Shown here piece after piece: positions 14,493-32,215 of a stretch of DNA of 46,699 nt; position 1 is the first letter of the stretch; each line of letters begins with the position of its first letter. The stretch is from contig JAJXUE010000022.1 of assembly GCA_021783135.1 (NCBI GenBank), forward strand, positions 1 to 46,699, given 5' to 3'. The translations under genes and the position numbers were made by a program. The stretch comes from Bacillota bacterium. GTDB lineage: Bacteria > Bacillota > Desulfitobacteriia > Desulfitobacteriales > JAJXUE01. The notes beneath the pieces are model-generated. The model ran no database searches. It saw only the letters and a list, made by a program, of their open reading frames with translations, and had not been told where the DNA came from.

Positions 14493-14499
14493 TAAACCA

Positions 14500-14618
14500 G
14501 CAAGCTAACAGACTCCTTTCCAAACACGGGAGGCACAGCGGTTTCCCGACTATACCCGGATACCTATTAAGGTATTAGCCCTGTACACCATTATTTTTAC
14601 ATATTAGGCCTTACAGGG
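14500..14618 (-). promoter_or_regulatory. Putative Moco/Tuco riboswitch in the moaA leader
   Basis: The leader RNA (minus strand) folds into several helices. CCCTGTA/TACAGGG is at the 5' end, a closing stem GCTAA/TTAGC spans 14504-14579, ATACC/GGTAT is within it, and CGGGA/TCCCG surrounds the segment CGGGAAACCGCTGTGCC. GGAAAGGAGTC follows. Its place before moaA, the compact closed fold and the downstream terminator fit the molybdenum/tungsten cofactor riboswitch. I am matching from memory of that class and could not run a covariance model. Confidence 0.55.
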
Positions 14619-14777
14619 TCGGAGTTTATATTAAATTATTACTATGCAATATATTCGTCACAATAATCTGAATACCTCCTAACCTGATAATAATTTATTA
14701 AGTGTTAGGCGACAGCAAGGTATTGGCTGAACTTGACCAGAATAAATAAGTAAGTAAAATTTGATGAGGTAGAAAAA

Positions 14778-20762: not shown

Positions 20763-23468
20763 TTACTTCGCGCCTTGTGCCCAGTCCGGTTTTTCAGCCT
20801 TGGAAATTTTAACACCGCAGATTTTGTACTCATACGTCTTGGTCACTTTATCCGAGGCCCCATTGGTTAATTCATTAACAGGACTTTCCAGGAAGTGATG
20901 GGTCATAAACAGCACCCCGGGCGGCACCCGGTCTGTCAGTTTAACCCTGGTCACCAACTGACCCCGTCTTGATTGCACGTGCATATAATCTCCGTCTGCG
21001 ACCCCAATATTAGCACCATCCAGCGGATTTAACTCCGCCATCTCTTCAGGACTATACGCCTCTAACCCTTTGGAATTGCGGGTCATTACGCCGTAATGGT
21101 ATAGCATACGCCCTGTGGTAAGCAAGATAGGATACTCGTCGTCAGGGGATTCAGCCGGCAGTTCATAGTCGATACTTTGGAACAGTCCTAAACCACGCAC
21201 GAACTTACCTGCATGCAAGAACTTAGTTCCGGAATGCTCTTTTGACGGTACCGGCCACTGCAGCCCATCGTTATCGATGCGATCATAGTCAATACCGGCA
21301 TAAGATGGGGTCACGCTGGCAATCTCGGCCATGATTTCTGCCGGATGCCTATAGTTGAAGTTGCCGCCCATGCGATTAGCAACCTCCATAATTATTTGCC
21401 AATCCGGTTTACAATTGCCGAGTGGCTCGATTGCTTTACGCACTCGTTGCACACGGCGTTCTGTATTGGTAAAGGTTCCGTCCTTCTCGGCAAAACTTGC
21501 ACCAGGTAAAATAACGTCAGCCAATTTCGCCGTTTCACTCATGAAAAGTTCCTGAACTACGAGGAAGTCGAGACTCTGCAGTCCTTTACGCACGTGATTG
21601 GCATCAGCATCAGTTAGTATCGGATCTTCGCCAAAATCATACAGTGCCCGCAGCTTACCTTCGACTGCGCCATCAAACATATCCGGAATCATAAAGCCGA
21701 GCTTATTATCTAGTTTAGCCCCCCAAGCCTTTTCAAACTTAGCGTGAACCACCGGATCAACTACAGACTGATAACCCGGATAGACATTCGGCAAAGCTCC
21801 CATGTCACAGGCGCCCTGCACATTATTCTGGCCGCGCAGGGGATTAACTCCGGCGTTCTCTTTACCCATATTACCGGTAAGCATCGCTAAGTTAGCCAGG
21901 CTCATAACGTTGTCAGTACCACAGGTATGCTCCGTAATGCCCAGCGTGTAGAAAATTTGCGCCCGTTCAGCAGTAGCGTAGATCCTGGCTGCCTCATACA
22001 GTTTCTCTTGTGGCACCCCGGTAACTTTGGCGACAAAATCAGGTGTATAATTAGCTACGGTCTTGCGGAGATTTTCAAACCCTTCCGTACGCGCCTCAAT
22101 AAAAGCACTGTCTTGCCAGCCTTCTTTGAGGATAATGTGCATTAAGCCGTTAATTAATGGTACATCTGTCCCTGGTCGATGGCGCAGCCACAGTGTAGCG
22201 CGCTCAGTTAGTTCAATAGCCCGCGGGTCACACACCACCAGTTGGGCACCCTTGCGCACGGCTTGCAGCATCTTAGCCCCGATAATGGGATGGGCTTCCG
22301 TAGTATTTGAGCCGATTACAAATAACACTTTAGAATCAGGGATTTCGTTAATGGAGTTGGTCATTGCTCCGGAACCAAAGGAAGTGGCCAGACCGGCCAC
22401 AGTAGGACTGTGTCAGGTCCGGGCGCAGTGATCCACGTTGTTCGTGCCTATCACTGCGCGCATGAATTTTTGCATTAGGTAATTTTCTTCATTTGTACAC
22501 CTGGCAGAGCTTAAGCCTGCAATAGAATCCGGCCCATACTTTTCCTTGATTGCTGTTAATTTCTCTGCCACCAAGTTTAACGCTTCATCCCACGTAGCTT
22601 CCACAAACACCCCGTCTCGCTTAATTAGCGGGGTAGTTATTCTTCTATCACTATGAATAAAATCGGTGCCAAAACGACCTTTGATACACAAATGGCGTCC
22701 GTTAACAACACTTGTCTCATTGCCAGTTACCCCAATTACCTTACCGTCTTTGACGTTTAAGTCGTAGTTGCAACCGACACCGCAGAAATTACACGTAGTT
22801 TTAACTTTGCGAATTTCCCACGGCCGTCCTTTGCCAATCATATTCTTTTCCGTCAGTGCGCCTACAGGACAAACTGCAACACAGCTGCCACAAAAGACGC
22901 AATCTGACTCGCCTAATGGCAGTAAGGCTGGGCTAACTTCTGTATTAAAGCCGCGATAAGCGAAATCAATCACGCTGCGTCCTTGGATTTCCTCACAAGC
23001 CCGTACACATTTGCCACATAAAATACATTTATTCATATCTCGGACAATGAAATGATTGGAATCGTCGATCGGATGTTGGGCCTTTTCACCCTCAAACGGT
23101 TGATTGGCAACCTCATACTCGTAGGCGTACGCAGCCAGAGAACAATCTCCCATTTTTTGGCACACCATGCAGTCCAGCGGGTGATTGGCTACCATTAGCT
23201 CCAGTACGGTCTTTCTGGCTTCCCTCACTGTTGCAGTGTTAGTCCTTACTACCATACCCTGACCGGCAGTGGTAACACAAGACGGGGGTAAATTACGCAT
23301 TCCTTCAATCTCTACAACGCACAGACGACACCCGCCCGGACTGGAAAGTTCCGGATCATGGCAGAGAGTGGGAATGATAATGTCGTTATAACGGCAAGCT
23401 TCCAGAACGGTCGCGCCCTTAGGGGCTTGGACTTCTTTACCGTCAATGTTCAAGGTAATAAATTCCAC
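20763..23468 (-). CDS. fdhA: Formate dehydrogenase catalytic subunit, selenoprotein with NuoG-like N-terminus
   Basis: This is one 901-residue gene read through an in-frame TGA at 22415-22413 as selenocysteine (Sec352), in the motif CARTUHSPTVAGLA. A SECIS hairpin follows directly. The N-terminus has a [2Fe-2S] site (Cys36, 47, 50, 64), a His/Cys cluster site (His96, Cys100, 103, 109) and two [4Fe-4S] sites (Cys148-158 and 190-200). The bis-MGD catalytic domain starts with its own [4Fe-4S] site (Cys226, 229, 233, 261). It reversibly oxidises formate to CO2 and passes electrons to the NuoF-like partner. The start is GTG with AAAGGAG upstream. A standard gene caller would split it at the TGA. 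Confidence 0.95.
22384..22415 (-). promoter_or_regulatory. Bacterial SECIS element and UGA(Sec) codon of fdhA
   Basis: The UGA (22415-22413) is followed after 12 nt by a perfect 6-bp hairpin GTGGCC-GGTCT-GGCCAC. The apical GGUCU loop and its distance from the UGA closely match the E. coli fdhF SECIS bound by SelB. It lies inside the coding sequence, as usual in bacteria. selA, selB, selC and selD are not in this window. Confidence 0.92.
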
Positions 23469-23498
23469 GTTTTGCTCTCCTTTCTCCTTATATTCGAG

Positions 23499-25448
23499 TT
23501 AGCCTTTGATTACAGCGCCGAACTTACACTTATCCATGCACGTACCGCATTTAATACATTGGCTGGCATCAATGCGATATGGCTTCTTGAGTTCTCCACT
23601 AATGCAATTAACCGGACATGCCTTAGCACACGCTCCGCACCCAACACATTTTTCGCTGTCAATCCTATAGGTCAACAGGGCAGAACAAGCACCGGCAGGA
23701 CACCTTTTTTCGTTGATGTGGGCCTCATACTCATGTCGGAAATATTTCAAAGTTGTTAAAATCGGATTAGGTGCAGTCTGGCCTAAACCGCAGAGTGACG
23801 TAGCCTGAATGTTCTTGGCTAAGCGCTCCAGCGTTTCAATATCTCCTGCTTTTCCTTGCCCTTTCGTAATTCGGGTCAGGATTTCCAACATGCGTTTAGT
23901 GCCTTCACGACAGGGTGTACACTTACCGCAGGATTCTTTCTGGGTAAAGTTAAGGAAAAAACGGGCAATGTCGACCATGCAGGTAGTCTCATCCATCGTA
24001 ACAAGCCCACCCGAACCTACCATGGCACCGACTTTAATCAAGGAGTCATAATCAACCGGTAAATCAAGCATTTCCTTCGGCAAACAACCCCCCGAGGGGC
24101 CGCCAATTTGGACAGCTTTGAACTCCTTGCCGTTTTGGATACCGCCGCCGATATCAAAAATTATCTCGCGTAGGGTAACGCCCATGGGAACTTCGGCTAA
24201 CCCGGTATTATTCACTTTACCCGTTAACGCAAACACTTTGGTTCCCTTGCTGCGCTCCGTACCAAGCCCAGCATACCATTCACTGCCGCGACGCAAGATA
24301 GCTGGCACATTGGCATAGGTCTCGACATTGTTAATGTTAGTCGGTTTATCCCAAAGACCTTTGACGGCAGGGAAGGGCGGCCTCACCCGAGGCATGCCAC
24401 GTTTGCCTTCTACGGATGCCATTAAGGCGGTCTCTTCGCCACACACAAAAGCTCCGGCACCGGCTTTGATTTTTAGATGAAAGTCAAAGCCCGAGTTTAA
24501 AACGTTATCTCCCAACACGCCACAGGCTGACGCTTGATCAATTGCAACTTTAAGGCGTTTGATGGCGAGCGGATATTCGGCCCGCACGTAGATTACACCG
24601 TTGTTGGCGCCAATAGCATATCCAGCGACAAGCATACCCTCAATTACAGCATGAGGATCGCCTTCTAAAACTGAGCGGTCCATAAAGGCACCAGGGTCGC
24701 CTTCATCCGCATTGCAGACGACATATTTCTCATCACCCGGTGACTTAGACGCAAATTCCCACTTTTGGCCAGTGGAGAACCCTGCGCCGCCTCTGCCGCG
24801 CAACCCCGATTTTTTGACATCTTCAATCACTTCAAGCGGAGACATTGTTAACGCCTTGACAAACCCTTTGTAGCCATCACGCGCTATATACTCCTCCATG
24901 TTTTCCGGATCGATGTGTCCGCAGTTTCTTAATACATTACGTTGTTGCTTTTTATAAAAAGGGATATCTTGATAGTGCCGTACCTTCTCGCCAGTAATTG
25001 GTTCCTTATAAAGCAGCCGGTCAACCAATTCACCCTTGCCCAAGGCCTTCTCGACTAATTCCGGCACATCTTCTGGCTGAACCCGGCAGTAAAACGTTCC
25101 CTCCGGCTCCACAATAAAGATGGGACCTTGTTCACAAAACCCATGGCAGCCGGTAACGGTGATTTTCACTTTGTCGGCAAGCCCTTGCTTGGCCAATTCT
25201 GCCTCAAGGGCAGCATCTACTTTACGAGAACCGGAAGAAATGCAGCCAGATCCGGCGCAAATCAAAACTTGTTTTAACCCCGATTCAGGGGCAATCACTA
25301 CCTGCTTCAAACGTGTTTGTACTTTTTCCTTGCAGCTGGCATCATCGTGACATAACGGCCCTTCCGTACGGCAGGCGATATATTTGTCGCATGGCGTAGT
25401 GGGCGTATGAGTACACTTGTCGCAGCATACCTCCATTAGACTGTTCAT
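23499..25448 (-). CDS. HydB/NuoF-like flavoprotein subunit of formate dehydrogenase
   Basis: This NAD(H)-binding FMN subunit would link FdhA to NAD. Domains in order: a Cys-rich extension (seven Cys within residues 8-39), a thioredoxin-like [2Fe-2S] domain (Cys64, 69, 101, 105), and the NuoF core with GRGGAGFSTG (FMN) and CNADEGDPGAFMDR (NADH). The cluster site SCGKCTPCREGT follows, and a C-terminal ferredoxin carries two [4Fe-4S] motifs. The added 2Fe-2S and ferredoxin domains are those of HydB in electron-bifurcating hydrogenases, not of plain NuoF. GGAGG lies 7 nt before the ATG. It is 11 nt behind the NuoE-like gene and 30 nt before fdhA. Confidence 0.92.
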   Translation of the reverse strand: MNSLMEVCCDKCTHTPTTPCDKYIACRTEGPLCHDDASCKEKVQTRLKQVVIAPESGLKQVLICAGSGCISSGSRKVDAALEAELAKQGLADKVKITVTGCHGFCEQGPIFIVEPEGTFYCRVQPEDVPELVEKALGKGELVDRLLYKEPITGEKVRHYQDIPFYKKQQRNVLRNCGHIDPENMEEYIARDGYKGFVKALTMSPLEVIEDVKKSGLRGRGGAGFSTGQKWEFASKSPGDEKYVVCNADEGDPGAFMDRSVLEGDPHAVIEGMLVAGYAIGANNGVIYVRAEYPLAIKRLKVAIDQASACGVLGDNVLNSGFDFHLKIKAGAGAFVCGEETALMASVEGKRGMPRVRPPFPAVKGLWDKPTNINNVETYANVPAILRRGSEWYAGLGTERSKGTKVFALTGKVNNTGLAEVPMGVTLREIIFDIGGGIQNGKEFKAVQIGGPSGGCLPKEMLDLPVDYDSLIKVGAMVGSGGLVTMDETTCMVDIARFFLNFTQKESCGKCTPCREGTKRMLEILTRITKGQGKAGDIETLERLAKNIQATSLCGLGQTAPNPILTTLKYFRHEYEAHINEKRCPAGACSALLTYRIDSEKCVGCGACAKACPVNCISGELKKPYRIDASQCIKCGTCMDKCKFGAVIKG

Positions 25449-25459
25449 CCTACCGCCTC

Positions 25460-25954
25460 CTATTCGTATTGGGCCAGGATTTTCCCAAGTTTGTCGGGCG
25501 TTAACCTGCCGTGAGTATCTTCATTCACCATAATTACCGGAGCCAAACCACAGGCCCCAATACAAGCAATCGACTCTAAGGTATAACGGAGATCTTCACT
25601 TGTCTGCCCGTCCTCAATGCCGAGTTCTTTCTGAATTGTTTCTAAGATTTTTGCCCCGCCCCTGACATGGCAGGCTGTTCCTAAGCAAACTCGAACTATA
25701 TTTCTGCCTCGGGGATTTAAATGGAACTGGGCGTAAAAGGTAACAACGCCATATACTTTACTCAAAGGAATTTTTAGTTCGAAGCTAATCCTGCGCAACA
25801 CCTCGGCTGGCAGGTAACCATAAACTTCCTGAGTTTCCTGTAGGACCGGTATTAGGGCGCCTTTTTGCTGTTTGTACTTGGCCAAGATTTCTCCAAGTTT
25901 AATCTCTTTTGGGTCCGGCTGTAAGCCGTCTTCCACTGCACACTGGCAACTCAT
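25460..25954 (-). CDS. HydC/NuoE-like [2Fe-2S] subunit
   Basis: This thioredoxin-like [2Fe-2S] protein is the small partner of the HydB/NuoF-like subunit. The four cluster Cys lie in CLGTACHVRG and ACIGACGLAP. The N-terminal helical part contains the family segment GYLPAEVLRRISFEL, followed by KVYGVVTFYAQF. An unusual CxC (MSCQC) opens the protein. GGGAGG lies 7 nt before the ATG. It lies in the operon cyclo-ligase, NuoE-like, NuoF-like, fdhA. Confidence 0.94.
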   Translation of the reverse strand: MSCQCAVEDGLQPDPKEIKLGEILAKYKQQKGALIPVLQETQEVYGYLPAEVLRRISFELKIPLSKVYGVVTFYAQFHLNPRGRNIVRVCLGTACHVRGGAKILETIQKELGIEDGQTSEDLRYTLESIACIGACGLAPVIMVNEDTHGRLTPDKLGKILAQYE

Positions 25955-28518: not shown

Positions 28519-28550
28519 CAAAAAAAAGAAGCTCTATCTTTGCGAGCCTC
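28519..28550 (-). terminator. Terminator overlapping the stop of the CCA-type gene
   Basis: On the minus strand GAGGCTC pairs with GAGCTTC (one G.T pair) and is followed by eight T residues. The last codons and the TAG stop of the CCA-type gene lie inside the hairpin. Confidence 0.8.
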
Positions 28551-29823
28551 CTTTGAGATATGCGATTGCCTCATCTTTAGTTTTTACCAACCCGTCGACC
28601 TGGGCCAGCATAAGGTCTTCCAACAGCAAGCCGACCTGCACCCCCGGTTCAAGTCCCATTGTCTGCATCACCTCCTTGCCGTTAAGCAGGGCAGGGGGTA
28701 AATAGCGTTCTCGTGCAAAACTGAACCTGTGCATTAGTTCGAGCAGAAACTCCCGATAACCCGCCTCAATTGCCCCATCCCGATGCTCAGAGGCGGTAGC
28801 CATGGCATCGGCGAGTGATAACAATATAATCCCAATGCCGTCCTCACCAGCGCTTAGCATTAATTTATGTACAGCCCGGTCTGTAACTTGATCCGATTTG
28901 AACAAGAAACCACAGCGCATATGCAGTTTAATCAGTTTAGCAATAAGCTTAGTTTCTGTTGCGCTCAGACGCAACCGCCTAGCTATACCGATAAATTTTT
29001 CCTCGCCTGCGACATCATGCCCGTGAAACGTGATCCGACCGTCTGCTCGCCTCGCTTGGGTTTCCGGCTTACCAATATCGTGAACGAGCGCAGCAAATTT
29101 CACTAATTCCCGCACCCTCCCAGGGCCGACCTGACGGTCAAGATAAGTTGCAACCTTCACTTTAAGCTCGTTTGAAAATGGATTGCATACCAAAATCTGC
29201 TCCATACTTTTATACACTTGCAAGGAATGTAACCAGACGTTTTTCGTATGGTAATAGTTCTGTTCTACCTCTGCCAAATCTGCCAATTCGGGTAGGATAG
29301 CCTGAAAAACACCCAGGTGAAACATTTCTTCGCATATCTTCCAGCTTTGCTCGCTCCGCATTAGTCGCAATAATTCCGGCCAAATTCTTTCAGGCGGGCT
29401 TTGCACCAATAGCGGTGCCGCCTCTGCCATCCACTTAACGGTTTCAAGGTCTGACGCAAGGTCTAATTCATATTTAAAGCGCAGTCCGCGCAGGATTCGG
29501 ACCGGATCAGTACTCAGCGCCATATTTGTTACCGCTTTTAAGCGCTTTTGGGCCAAATCTCCTCTGCCTAAAGCCGGATCAACAACTCGCTCCAGACCGG
29601 ATTCCAGATAATTATTTATCTCAACCGCCATCGCATTACACGTGAAGTCACGCGCCAGCAAGTTCTCCTCCAGGCTTTTGCCCTCAAACCCGGCAAAATC
29701 CAGAACTAATTCAGGACTAACCACTCGAGCCAGCTCCGGTTCATCTTTCATGCGAACTAGCTTCTTACCCAGGAATACTGCCACCTTCTGAGCCAAATCA
29801 AGGGGATTTAAGATTTGTTCCAT
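28534..29823 (-). CDS. CCA-adding/poly(A) polymerase-like HD protein lacking the catalytic head
   Basis: This is a 429-residue relative of bacterial tRNA nucleotidyltransferases. It keeps the segment LLARDFTCNAMAVEI, the neck helices around DPVRILRGLRF and a complete HD domain (HDIGKPETQ plus downstream His/Asp). It lacks the N-terminal GGxVRD and DxD motifs that bind NTP and metal: the protein begins only ~45 residues before the LLARDF motif. The frame upstream reaches a stop within ~50 nt without those motifs. AGGGGGG lies 5 nt before the ATG, so this is a genuine start. It is predicted not to add CCA; a role as an HD phosphohydrolase or RNA-binding protein is inferred. Confidence 0.8.
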   Translation of the reverse strand: MEQILNPLDLAQKVAVFLGKKLVRMKDEPELARVVSPELVLDFAGFEGKSLEENLLARDFTCNAMAVEINNYLESGLERVVDPALGRGDLAQKRLKAVTNMALSTDPVRILRGLRFKYELDLASDLETVKWMAEAAPLLVQSPPERIWPELLRLMRSEQSWKICEEMFHLGVFQAILPELADLAEVEQNYYHTKNVWLHSLQVYKSMEQILVCNPFSNELKVKVATYLDRQVGPGRVRELVKFAALVHDIGKPETQARRADGRITFHGHDVAGEEKFIGIARRLRLSATETKLIAKLIKLHMRCGFLFKSDQVTDRAVHKLMLSAGEDGIGIILLSLADAMATASEHRDGAIEAGYREFLLELMHRFSFARERYLPPALLNGKEVMQTMGLEPGVQVGLLLEDLMLAQVDGLVKTKDEAIAYLKGGSQR

Positions 29824-29989: not shown

Positions 29990-30220
29990 TTTTCCACATC
30001 CTAAGCGTGATAATACAGGCAATTTTGCAACTTATCCACATTGTCCACAGCCCCTGCCTATGAATATCTCATAACGCCTGTGCACAATTTAACCCACAAA
30101 AAAACCCCCGAAAATAGGGTTATTAACAGAGTTACACACATTATCCACAGGCATTCACGCTTTCATGTATCCACAGAACAAACCTTCTGTGGGGAAGTTG
30201 TTAGTTATCCACAGAAGGTT
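29990..30220. other. DnaA-box cluster
   Basis: Three perfect DnaA boxes TTATCCACA lie at 30032, 30141 and 30205. One-mismatch forms lie at 29990 (TTTTCCACA), 30041 (TTGTCCACA) and 30167 (GTATCCACA), with weaker forms such as CTGTGCACA at 30078. A 12-bp inverted repeat AACCTTCTGTGG/CCACAGAAGGTT (30181-30192, 30209-30220) contains part of the last box. No dnaA, dnaN or other usual origin gene is in the window, and gene strand bias does not switch here. A DnaA-titration or regulatory site is more likely than the chromosomal origin. Confidence 0.75.
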
Positions 30221-30297
30221 TATACGTGCAAGGAAGCTCAGTTGTAATACTTACTCCCATCGCCAAAGCCTATCCTGAGAATGGGCTATTTTCGATC

Positions 30298-30513
30298 TTA
30301 GTAGTCAACATCTACAATTTTGTCAATAGGTATTACATGGTTAGCGGTCGGCGTGCAACTCATATCGTGCAATTTTACAGTCTCAACAGTTACCTTAGTT
30401 ACAACGCCATGATATCCACTGTTGGTTCCGCCGCTGGCGTAAACCCGGACAAGGTTGCCGTTTTTATGCAACCGTTTAAGTAAGCTCCTGATTGAACCGA
30501 TGGAACCGGCCAT
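30298..30513 (-). CDS. Small beta-rich protein, possibly Sm-like (71 aa)
   Basis: The start is ATG 30513, with AAAGGAGG 8 nt upstream; longer in-frame readings lack a ribosome site. The product opens with a helix (SIGSIRSLLKRLHKNGN). Alternating strands follow (LVRVYASGG, GYHGVVTKVTVETVKL) and it closes with IPIDKIVDVDY. A helix followed by five short strands with a central GxVxxV turn resembles Sm-like barrels such as DUF2642 proteins, but I cannot confirm that. It lies between the t6A operon terminator and the DnaA-box cluster. Confidence 0.65.
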   Translation of the reverse strand: MAGSIGSIRSLLKRLHKNGNLVRVYASGGTNSGYHGVVTKVTVETVKLHDMSCTPTANHVIPIDKIVDVDY

Positions 30514-30650
30514 GCCATAAGCCTCCTTTGTTTGGTTATTGGTTAAGCCCGGAATGTTCTGCCAAATATGTGTAAGATACCACCCTCCTTTGTCACGAAC
30601 CTCTAATTCATAATATCCAAAGGACTGTAAGTTTGTTCTTAATAAGTAAA

Positions 30651-30705: not shown

Positions 30706-31722
30706 TTAAGCTAAGGCCATACCCGGTATGGCATTTAAATCTTGGCTCGAAAATTCACCGCGCAAGTATTTGTAATAAGCCGCACAGCCGATCATGGCCG
30801 CATTATCCGTGCACAGTTCGATGGGCGGGTAGTAAAAATTATAGCCTGCTGCATTACAGGCGTCAGTCATACTTTGCCGCAAGGCCTGATTGGCCGCGAC
30901 ACCTCCCGCTAATAAAACGGTTCTAACTCCGGTCGCTTTGGCAGCGGTTAAGGTCTTGCCCACCAAAATTTCTATAACTGCCTGTTGAAAGCTTGCTGCC
31001 AAATCAGCTTTGTCGACGACTTCGCCTTTCTGCCCTGCTCGGTTTAAATAATTAAGTACAGCCGATTTCATACCGGAAAAACTAAAATCAAGACTCCCCG
31101 GCTCCAACCAAGCGCGGGGAAGTTCAATCCCTAACGGATTTCCGGTAGCGGCTGTAGCTTGTATCTGCGGTCCGCCGGGATAGCCCAAACCCATAGCCCT
31201 GGCAACTTTGTCAAAGGCCTCCCCAGCGGCATCGTCGCGAGTCCGGCCCAATATCTTGTATTTGCCATGGTCTTGCAGCAGAACCAAATGTGTGTGTCCA
31301 CCGGAGACCAATAAACATAACAGAGGAAATTGCAGCTGAGGGTGGACTAAGAAATTAGCATAGATGTGCCCTTCAATGTGATTGACCCCAATCAGCGGCA
31401 AACCCTGAGCCGCTGCCATGGCTTTGGCACCCGCAACTCCTACAAGTAGGGCACCCACCAGACCGGGACCATAGGTTACCGCGATAGCATCTAGGTCAGA
31501 AAATGATACCTCGGCCATTTGCAAAGCCTCTGCTACGACCTGTGGCAAATGTTCTAGGTGATGCCGCGACGCAATCTCCGGTACAACCCCGCCAAATTTT
31601 TGATGGACCGGTATCTGCGAGAAAATTATGTTCGCAAGAATGTCATGCCCATCAGCAATCACAGCTGCGGCTGTTTCGTCACAGCTCGTTTCGATGCTCA
31701 GGATTAAATTTTTTTTGTCCAA
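30706..31722 (-). CDS. tsaD: tRNA threonylcarbamoyladenosine transferase TsaD
   Basis: This is the catalytic subunit that transfers threonylcarbamoyl to A37 of ANN-decoding tRNAs. The ASKHA fold begins LILSIETSCDETAAAV, and the metal-binding HIEGHIYAN and the downstream GGVAANQALR are present. The protein has 338 residues. TTG 31722 is chosen over longer upstream readings because GGAGG lies 7 nt before it and the family begins here. It is the last gene of tsaE-tsaB-rimI-tsaD. The first enzyme, TsaC, is not in the window. Confidence 0.96.
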   Translation of the reverse strand: MDKKNLILSIETSCDETAAAVIADGHDILANIIFSQIPVHQKFGGVVPEIASRHHLEHLPQVVAEALQMAEVSFSDLDAIAVTYGPGLVGALLVGVAGAKAMAAAQGLPLIGVNHIEGHIYANFLVHPQLQFPLLCLLVSGGHTHLVLLQDHGKYKILGRTRDDAAGEAFDKVARAMGLGYPGGPQIQATAATGNPLGIELPRAWLEPGSLDFSFSGMKSAVLNYLNRAGQKGEVVDKADLAASFQQAVIEILVGKTLTAAKATGVRTVLLAGGVAANQALRQSMTDACNAAGYNFYYPPIELCTDNAAMIGCAAYYKYLRGEFSSQDLNAIPGMALA

Positions 31723-31747
31723 ACCACTACCTCCAACTACACTGTCC

Positions 31748-32215
31748 CTAATCAAGCTTGTCCTTCCACATGATAATGGCGTCTTCCTTGGTGTCAGTAT
31801 AATAACCCTTGCGCAGCCCTGCATTGGTAAAACCCATTTTGGCATATAAAGACTGCGCCGCTGAGTTGGAAACCCTTACTTCCAAAGTCATGCGTTTTAT
31901 GCCTGCTACCTGGCAGCGCAGTTCCACTTCACGCATGAGTAACTCGCCAAGGCTACGGTTGCGATACTCTGGGTGAATCGCGACATTCGTAATGTGAGCC
32001 TCATCCAGAATAACCCACAACCCCATATAGCCTATCACCGTATCATTACTGAGCAAACAGTAATATCGCGCAAAGTCATTGTCCATCAACTCACAGCTAA
32101 ATGCGTAGCGAGACCACGGCGTAGGAAATGACTTTTCTTCAATGCGTAAAACTTGGTCGAGATGTTGCAGGTGCATGGGCACAAGTGTGTACCCCGCTAT
32201 GGCCGGTTCTGCCAT
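31748..32215 (-). CDS. rimI: Ribosomal protein S18-alanine N-acetyltransferase
   Basis: This GNAT acetyltransferase modifies the N-terminus of ribosomal protein S18. The acetyl-CoA site appears as VAIHPEYRNRSLGELLM (the R/QxxGxG/A region is RNRSLG). The RimI-specific part VRVSNSAAQSLYAKMGF and ending GYYTDTKEDAIIMW are present. Its ATG directly follows the tsaB stop (TAAATG), so the two are coupled. Linkage to the tsa genes is common in Firmicutes. Confidence 0.93.
   Translation of the reverse strand: MAEPAIAGYTLVPMHLQHLDQVLRIEEKSFPTPWSRYAFSCELMDNDFARYYCLLSNDTVIGYMGLWVILDEAHITNVAIHPEYRNRSLGELLMREVELRCQVAGIKRMTLEVRVSNSAAQSLYAKMGFTNAGLRKGYYTDTKEDAIIMWKDKLD

Follow-up and report, generated by a model that had tools for sequence, protein, structure and literature searches.

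The DnaA-box clusters that lie outside oriC in Bacillus subtilis are usually regarded as redundant. Okumura 2012, as cited in reviews, reportedly described such clusters outside oriC, the one at gcp-ydiF among them. One of the regions that DnaA binds most strongly in vitro is the B. subtilis region listed as 'downstream of gcp; downstream of ydiF', which has 10 sites and is flanked by two 3′ ends (Smith and Grossman 2015, PMC4447404). Its apparent Kd is 0.15 μM for ATP-DnaA and 0.33 μM for ADP-DnaA, and 16-fold more of its DNA was recovered with ATP-DnaA at 55 nM (PMC4447404). Removal of six clusters outside oriC causes B. subtilis to initiate early, which suggests sensitivity to free DnaA (PMC5295017; PMC13220808). 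Hda, SeqA, IHF and datA are all missing from this bacterium (PMC13220808).

We compared these systems to a DnaA-box array within a 46.7 kb window, the whole stretch of DNA analysed here. Like the B. subtilis gcp-ydiF cluster, the array is intergenic, contains many boxes, lies outside oriC and is positioned 3′ of tsaD, formerly gcp, as judged from the published B. subtilis position (PMC4447404). Since gcp is tsaD, and DnaA binds strongly at this place in B. subtilis, the array is best read as the gcp-ydiF site in a distant Firmicute. Several Clostridia also share a convergent ABC-F ATPase gene beyond the cluster, as ydiF is in B. subtilis. The two lineages are distant, however, and the array here has a CCA-type gene in the place of ydiF and a small ORF in between.

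The resemblance to the Escherichia coli sites is more partial. datA is also a DnaA-box cluster outside oriC, and lowers active DnaA (PMC5295017), but it needs IHF, promotes ATP hydrolysis and has a gene context unlike that of the array. DARS1 and DARS2 are likewise non-coding DnaA-binding sites distant from oriC, yet they reactivate DnaA, an effect opposite to that proposed for the array. A high-density DnaA-motif region in E. coli is described as titrating DnaA through conserved, motif-rich chromosomal DNA (PMC12371093), whereas its dense motifs lie near the origin and form no compact spaced array. Searching the text of that paper for Bacillus or Firmicutes gave no match. DnaA-box clusters as a kind, and one at tsaD, are already known, while the phylum-wide depth and the fixed layout of the tsaD cluster appear to be new. 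The literature searched, which did not cover the key B. subtilis studies Okumura 2012 and Ishikawa 2007, contained no paper joining tsaD with DnaA boxes and no earlier report that the tsaD cluster is conserved.

The DnaA-box array and its layout

Six boxes are located at 29990–30213, three exact copies of TTATCCACA and three with one mismatch, every one on the + strand (Table 1). The preliminary description had noted three perfect boxes and further near-boxes in the same orientation, and both observations hold. No other exact box is found in the window, and pattern searches, the basis of the genome-wide counts, gave 43 exact boxes across the genome (2.71 Mb draft in 67 contigs, 96.7% complete). 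We scored clustering by summing exact boxes as 1 and one-mismatch boxes as 0.5 per 300 bp. The array scored 4.5, relative to a mean of 0.89 and a maximum of 1.5 in 300 dinucleotide-preserving shuffles of the window, and the closeness of its boxes is thus far above chance. Two degenerate boxes, TTACACACA (30132) and TTATTAACA (30120), are in register with the others and occupy the same place in relatives.

Table 1 Features of the array and its surroundings, in window coordinates.
Feature	Position	Strand	Remark
Whole DnaA-box array	29990..30213	+	Six exact or one-mismatch boxes and two degenerate ones
Box G, TTTTCCACA, one mismatch	29990..29998	+	Box F lies 42 bp on; unchanged in both relatives from the same family
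Box F, TTATCCACA, exact	30032..30040	+	Half of the 9-bp tandem pair
Box E, TTGTCCACA, one mismatch	30041..30049	+	Other half of the 9-bp tandem pair
Terminator-like hairpin and T run within the array	30103..30121	-	For transcripts arriving from tsaD; folding energy weak
Degenerate box TTATTAACA	30120..30128	+	Next box 12 bp on; conserved in relatives
Degenerate box TTACACACA	30132..30140	+	Tandem with box C; position kept in relatives
Box C, TTATCCACA, exact	30141..30149	+	Pattern search
Box B, GTATCCACA, one mismatch	30167..30175	+	Pattern search
13-bp perfect inverted repeat overlapping box A	30180..30221 (arms 30180–30192 / 30209–30221)		Sequence search
Box A, TTATCCACA, exact	30205..30213	+	Pattern search
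72-aa small ORF separating tsaD from the array	30298..30516	-	No family (Pfam) match
tsaD (old name gcp)	30706..31845	-	TIGR03723, E 1.7e-133; the neighbour that is conserved
CCA/poly(A)-polymerase-like gene with HD domain	28534..29823	-	Flanks the array opposite tsaD; not conserved

Comparison with two relatives from the same family reveals that the order A-38-B-26/28-C-100-E-9-F-42-G is kept. Identity to these relatives is 94% within the boxes (144 comparisons) and 58% at the intervening positions (318 comparisons). Judged by these comparisons, both the boxes and their spacing are under constraint.

The same arrangement recurs at tsaD in other genomes. A tandem pair of boxes, 9 bp from start to start, is present at 109 of 196 tsaD loci, and 88 of these 109 have a third box, matching at 7 or more of 9 positions, 40–46 bp past the second (42–44 bp in 74 cases). 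An inverted box precedes the tandem pair by 14 bp in 22 loci. The window follows this pattern, with the tandem pair at 30041/30032 and the third box at 29990 (9 and 42 bp). Among the order-level and named sets described below, the commonest spacings of antisense boxes are 9, 12, 21, 32, 42–43, 51–52 and 63 bp. These are compatible with a DNA-helix repeat, although the loci are related and the spacings provide no independent statistic.

Gene neighbours and transcription signals

The array sits 3′ of tsaD at a distance of 500–720 bp, with its boxes pointing against the gene, and rimI and tsaB precede tsaD in the window. A 73-residue ORF occupies the position of the 72-residue ORF in both same-family relatives. 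The window copy has a good ribosome-binding site. The preliminary description had named the CCA-type gene, with the small gene, as flanking. We rejected the CCA-type gene as an anchor of the array, since 40 relatives yielded only partial, distant matches to it, the best at most 38% identical, and the conserved and informative neighbour is instead tsaD. The genes past the cluster vary among lineages in both identity and direction; reading names from the sequences, we take them to be 5-formyl-THF-ligase-like, ABC-F ATPase, BioY-like, PepV-like peptidase and radical-SAM-like genes. Control of one fixed neighbour is therefore not the shared function, and in that sense the earlier suggestion of control over the small gene or the CCA-type gene lacks support, given the distant and partial CCA-type matches and the varied flanking genes.

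A related possibility is that bound DnaA regulates a neighbour, here the CCA-type gene, or stops transcripts of the tsaD operon from reading through. The array contains a terminator-like hairpin, and both relatives from the same family have a hairpin and T run in the corresponding position. In addition, a weak promoter-like match on the minus strand overlaps boxes E and F, and DnaA is known to act as a transcription factor in B. subtilis (PMC4447404). However, promoter-like matches occur at chance level (3 against 2.6 expected), the genes past the cluster differ between lineages as described above, and the B. subtilis site lies between two 3′ ends (PMC4447404). We consider a transcriptional element to be a rather improbable account of the array.

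The inverted repeat that overlaps the last box, earlier given as 12 bp, extends to 13 bp. Folded as RNA it reaches -21.4 kcal/mol (z -6.5), far better than shuffles, and it may mark an RNA end or serve as a signal for processing. It is incompletely kept in the two same-family relatives, and we rejected it as a conserved part of the array.

Conservation of the cluster at tsaD

We collected tsaD and its flanks in three sets with few genomes in common: order-level relatives, 80 named GTDB loci, and an even phylum-wide sample. Loci with at least 1 kb of 3′ flank were counted, and scored positive where a cluster score of at least 2 was reached within 2 kb 3′ of tsaD. The cluster was present in 26 of 28 order-level relatives, 34 of 75 named loci and 58 of 85 evenly drawn phylum genomes. 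On the 5′ side of tsaD, none of 188 loci had a cluster (0 in each of the three sets). The absence of the boxes in relatives had been put forward as the observation that would count against the site, and their presence in the order-level set favours the finding instead. Around a third of the phylum sample lacks a cluster at tsaD, as do Negativicutes such as Selenomonas, Propionispira and Megamonas among the named GTDB loci.

The boxes are concentrated immediately after the gene, with a density of 1.84 per 250 bp right after tsaD against approximately 0.1 elsewhere within 5 kb (order-level and named sets). Their orientation is strongly biased, with 577 boxes in tsaD clusters running against tsaD and 72 along it. 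When the box was permuted (60 versions), the phylum sample gave a mean of 0.03 positive loci of 88, with a maximum of 1. A chance cluster of boxes would find its sole encouragement in the AT-rich intergenic setting; it is opposed by the shuffles, these permuted-box controls and the in-register conservation, and is refuted by conservation across families, leaving it a negligible probability. That some two thirds of the phylum-wide sample carry the cluster beside this one gene and with matching spacing argues for lasting selection on the tsaD site.

We also surveyed Sua5/tsaC, another t6A gene, and found clusters around 0 of 30 loci. Thus, the association is with the tsaD place and not with the t6A pathway, and a general link of clusters to t6A synthesis was rejected. 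In B. subtilis, the tsaC-like gene ywlC also bears a DnaA-box cluster.

Replication origin, proposed role and a second array

The preliminary description had remarked on the absence of dnaA and on an unswitched strand bias, had proposed locating dnaA and oriC, and had listed a separate origin among the candidate roles. We confirmed that dnaA is absent from the window, which lies on contig C53, and located it on contig C9, where an ordinary oriC is found at dnaA-dnaN; the array is outside it. The dnaA-dnaN gap holds a near-box followed by CTACTACTATTACTACTAT, which we take to be the DnaA-trio pattern. These trio-like repeats, beside the near-box near 80.6 kb of C9 (about 820–860 of locus L001, minus strand), are likely the unwinding site of this genome's oriC. 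Near the array we found no trio-like repeats, and elsewhere in the search they occurred only at chance level. Almost every kilobase of the window shows a negative GC skew, which does not switch at the array. Thus, although its box density resembles that of oriC and it has an AT-rich flank, the array lacks adjacency to dnaA or dnaN, and has neither trio repeats beside a box nor a switch in skew, while a normal origin exists in the same genome. We regard a second or alternative origin as highly improbable. Since the same row of boxes stands in the same place in most related Firmicutes, we think it probable that the array is a long-standing control site restraining DnaA and not a second origin.

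We propose, with moderate confidence, that the array represents the DnaA-box cluster found in Firmicutes at tsaD (gcp), and that it holds ATP-DnaA and restrains initiation. Of the roles first listed for the array, a DnaA-titrating site is the best supported, by synteny with B. subtilis gcp-ydiF and by conservation at tsaD, while gene control and a separate origin have lost ground. The boxes, their spacing, position, conservation and constraint are directly supported here. We infer that DnaA binds the array in this organism and affects the timing of initiation there. DnaA, above all ATP-DnaA, would bind the strong boxes and spread over the degenerate ones to form an ordered complex, in which spacings of 9, 12, 21 and 42–44 bp would turn most boxes towards much the same side of the helix. 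Passage of the replication fork would double the tsaD site and take up more ATP-DnaA, and the lowered level of free DnaA at oriC would delay the next initiation.

Three observations count against titration. In complete relatives, the distance of tsaD from dnaA ranges from approximately 0.2 to 0.95 of a replication arm, with most copies towards mid-arm (genome sizes rounded), so that tsaD is not always proximal to the origin, and this position is loose for a timing device. The genomes without the cluster, both in the phylum sample and among the Negativicutes, weigh in the same direction, and the strict spacing exceeds what passive titration would need.

An alternative is that the array resembles datA or DARS in function, with an ordered complex that alters the nucleotide state of DnaA, by ATP hydrolysis or ADP release, rather than merely holding it. 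The conserved order and spacing of the boxes, including the degenerate ones, would be expected of a defined complex, and the syntenic B. subtilis site prefers ATP-DnaA (PMC4447404). However, datA and DARS2 depend on IHF (and Fis), B. subtilis has neither IHF nor datA/DARS loci (PMC13220808), and the literature consulted reports no catalytic effect for any B. subtilis cluster (PMC5295017). At the level of sequence, a catalytic site and simple titration would look alike. This alternative is unlikely, if less so than the transcriptional one.

The tandem pair also occurs at other places. Among the matches listed for this genome, the 18-bp tandem with at most one mismatch is found twice, in the tsaD array and at C9:197976. 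Among 150 tandem sites listed from 85 phylum-sample genomes, 63 are no more than 4.5 kb away from tsaD, and these come from 55 genomes. We examined 40 other tandem sites and found comFC in 18 of the 40 loci, with its 3′ end 92–562 bp from the tandem, and hpf in 21 of the 40. The other tandem array of this genome (C9:197896–198008) is also 3′ of comFC, from which a small zinc-finger ORF separates it. The comFC-hpf array looks like a second phylum-wide DnaA-box cluster. PMC4447404 does not include this site in its list of the ten strongest DnaA regions of B. subtilis. This second cluster lies between comFC and either hpf/secA or an amino-acid ABC transporter.

A bolder reading, which we advance tentatively, would see in the tsaD array a DnaA-control element that is ancestral in Firmicutes and keeps one layout throughout (9-bp tandem, third box 42–44 bp on, inverted box). 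It may then assemble a defined ATP-DnaA complex that goes beyond passive titration and, together with the comFC-hpf array, could form the Firmicute counterpart of datA/DARS. As a single small site, the tsaD cluster is open to deletion or mutation in many species, and the finding also directs attention to the conserved site at comFC-hpf, which merits separate study.

Elsewhere in the window, a molybdenum/tungsten cofactor riboswitch is found at 14499–14636 on the minus strand (75.9 bits), and NuoE/HoxE-, NuoF- and NuoG-like genes stand in a row at 22413–25954, also on the minus strand, as in hydrogenase or formate dehydrogenase complexes.
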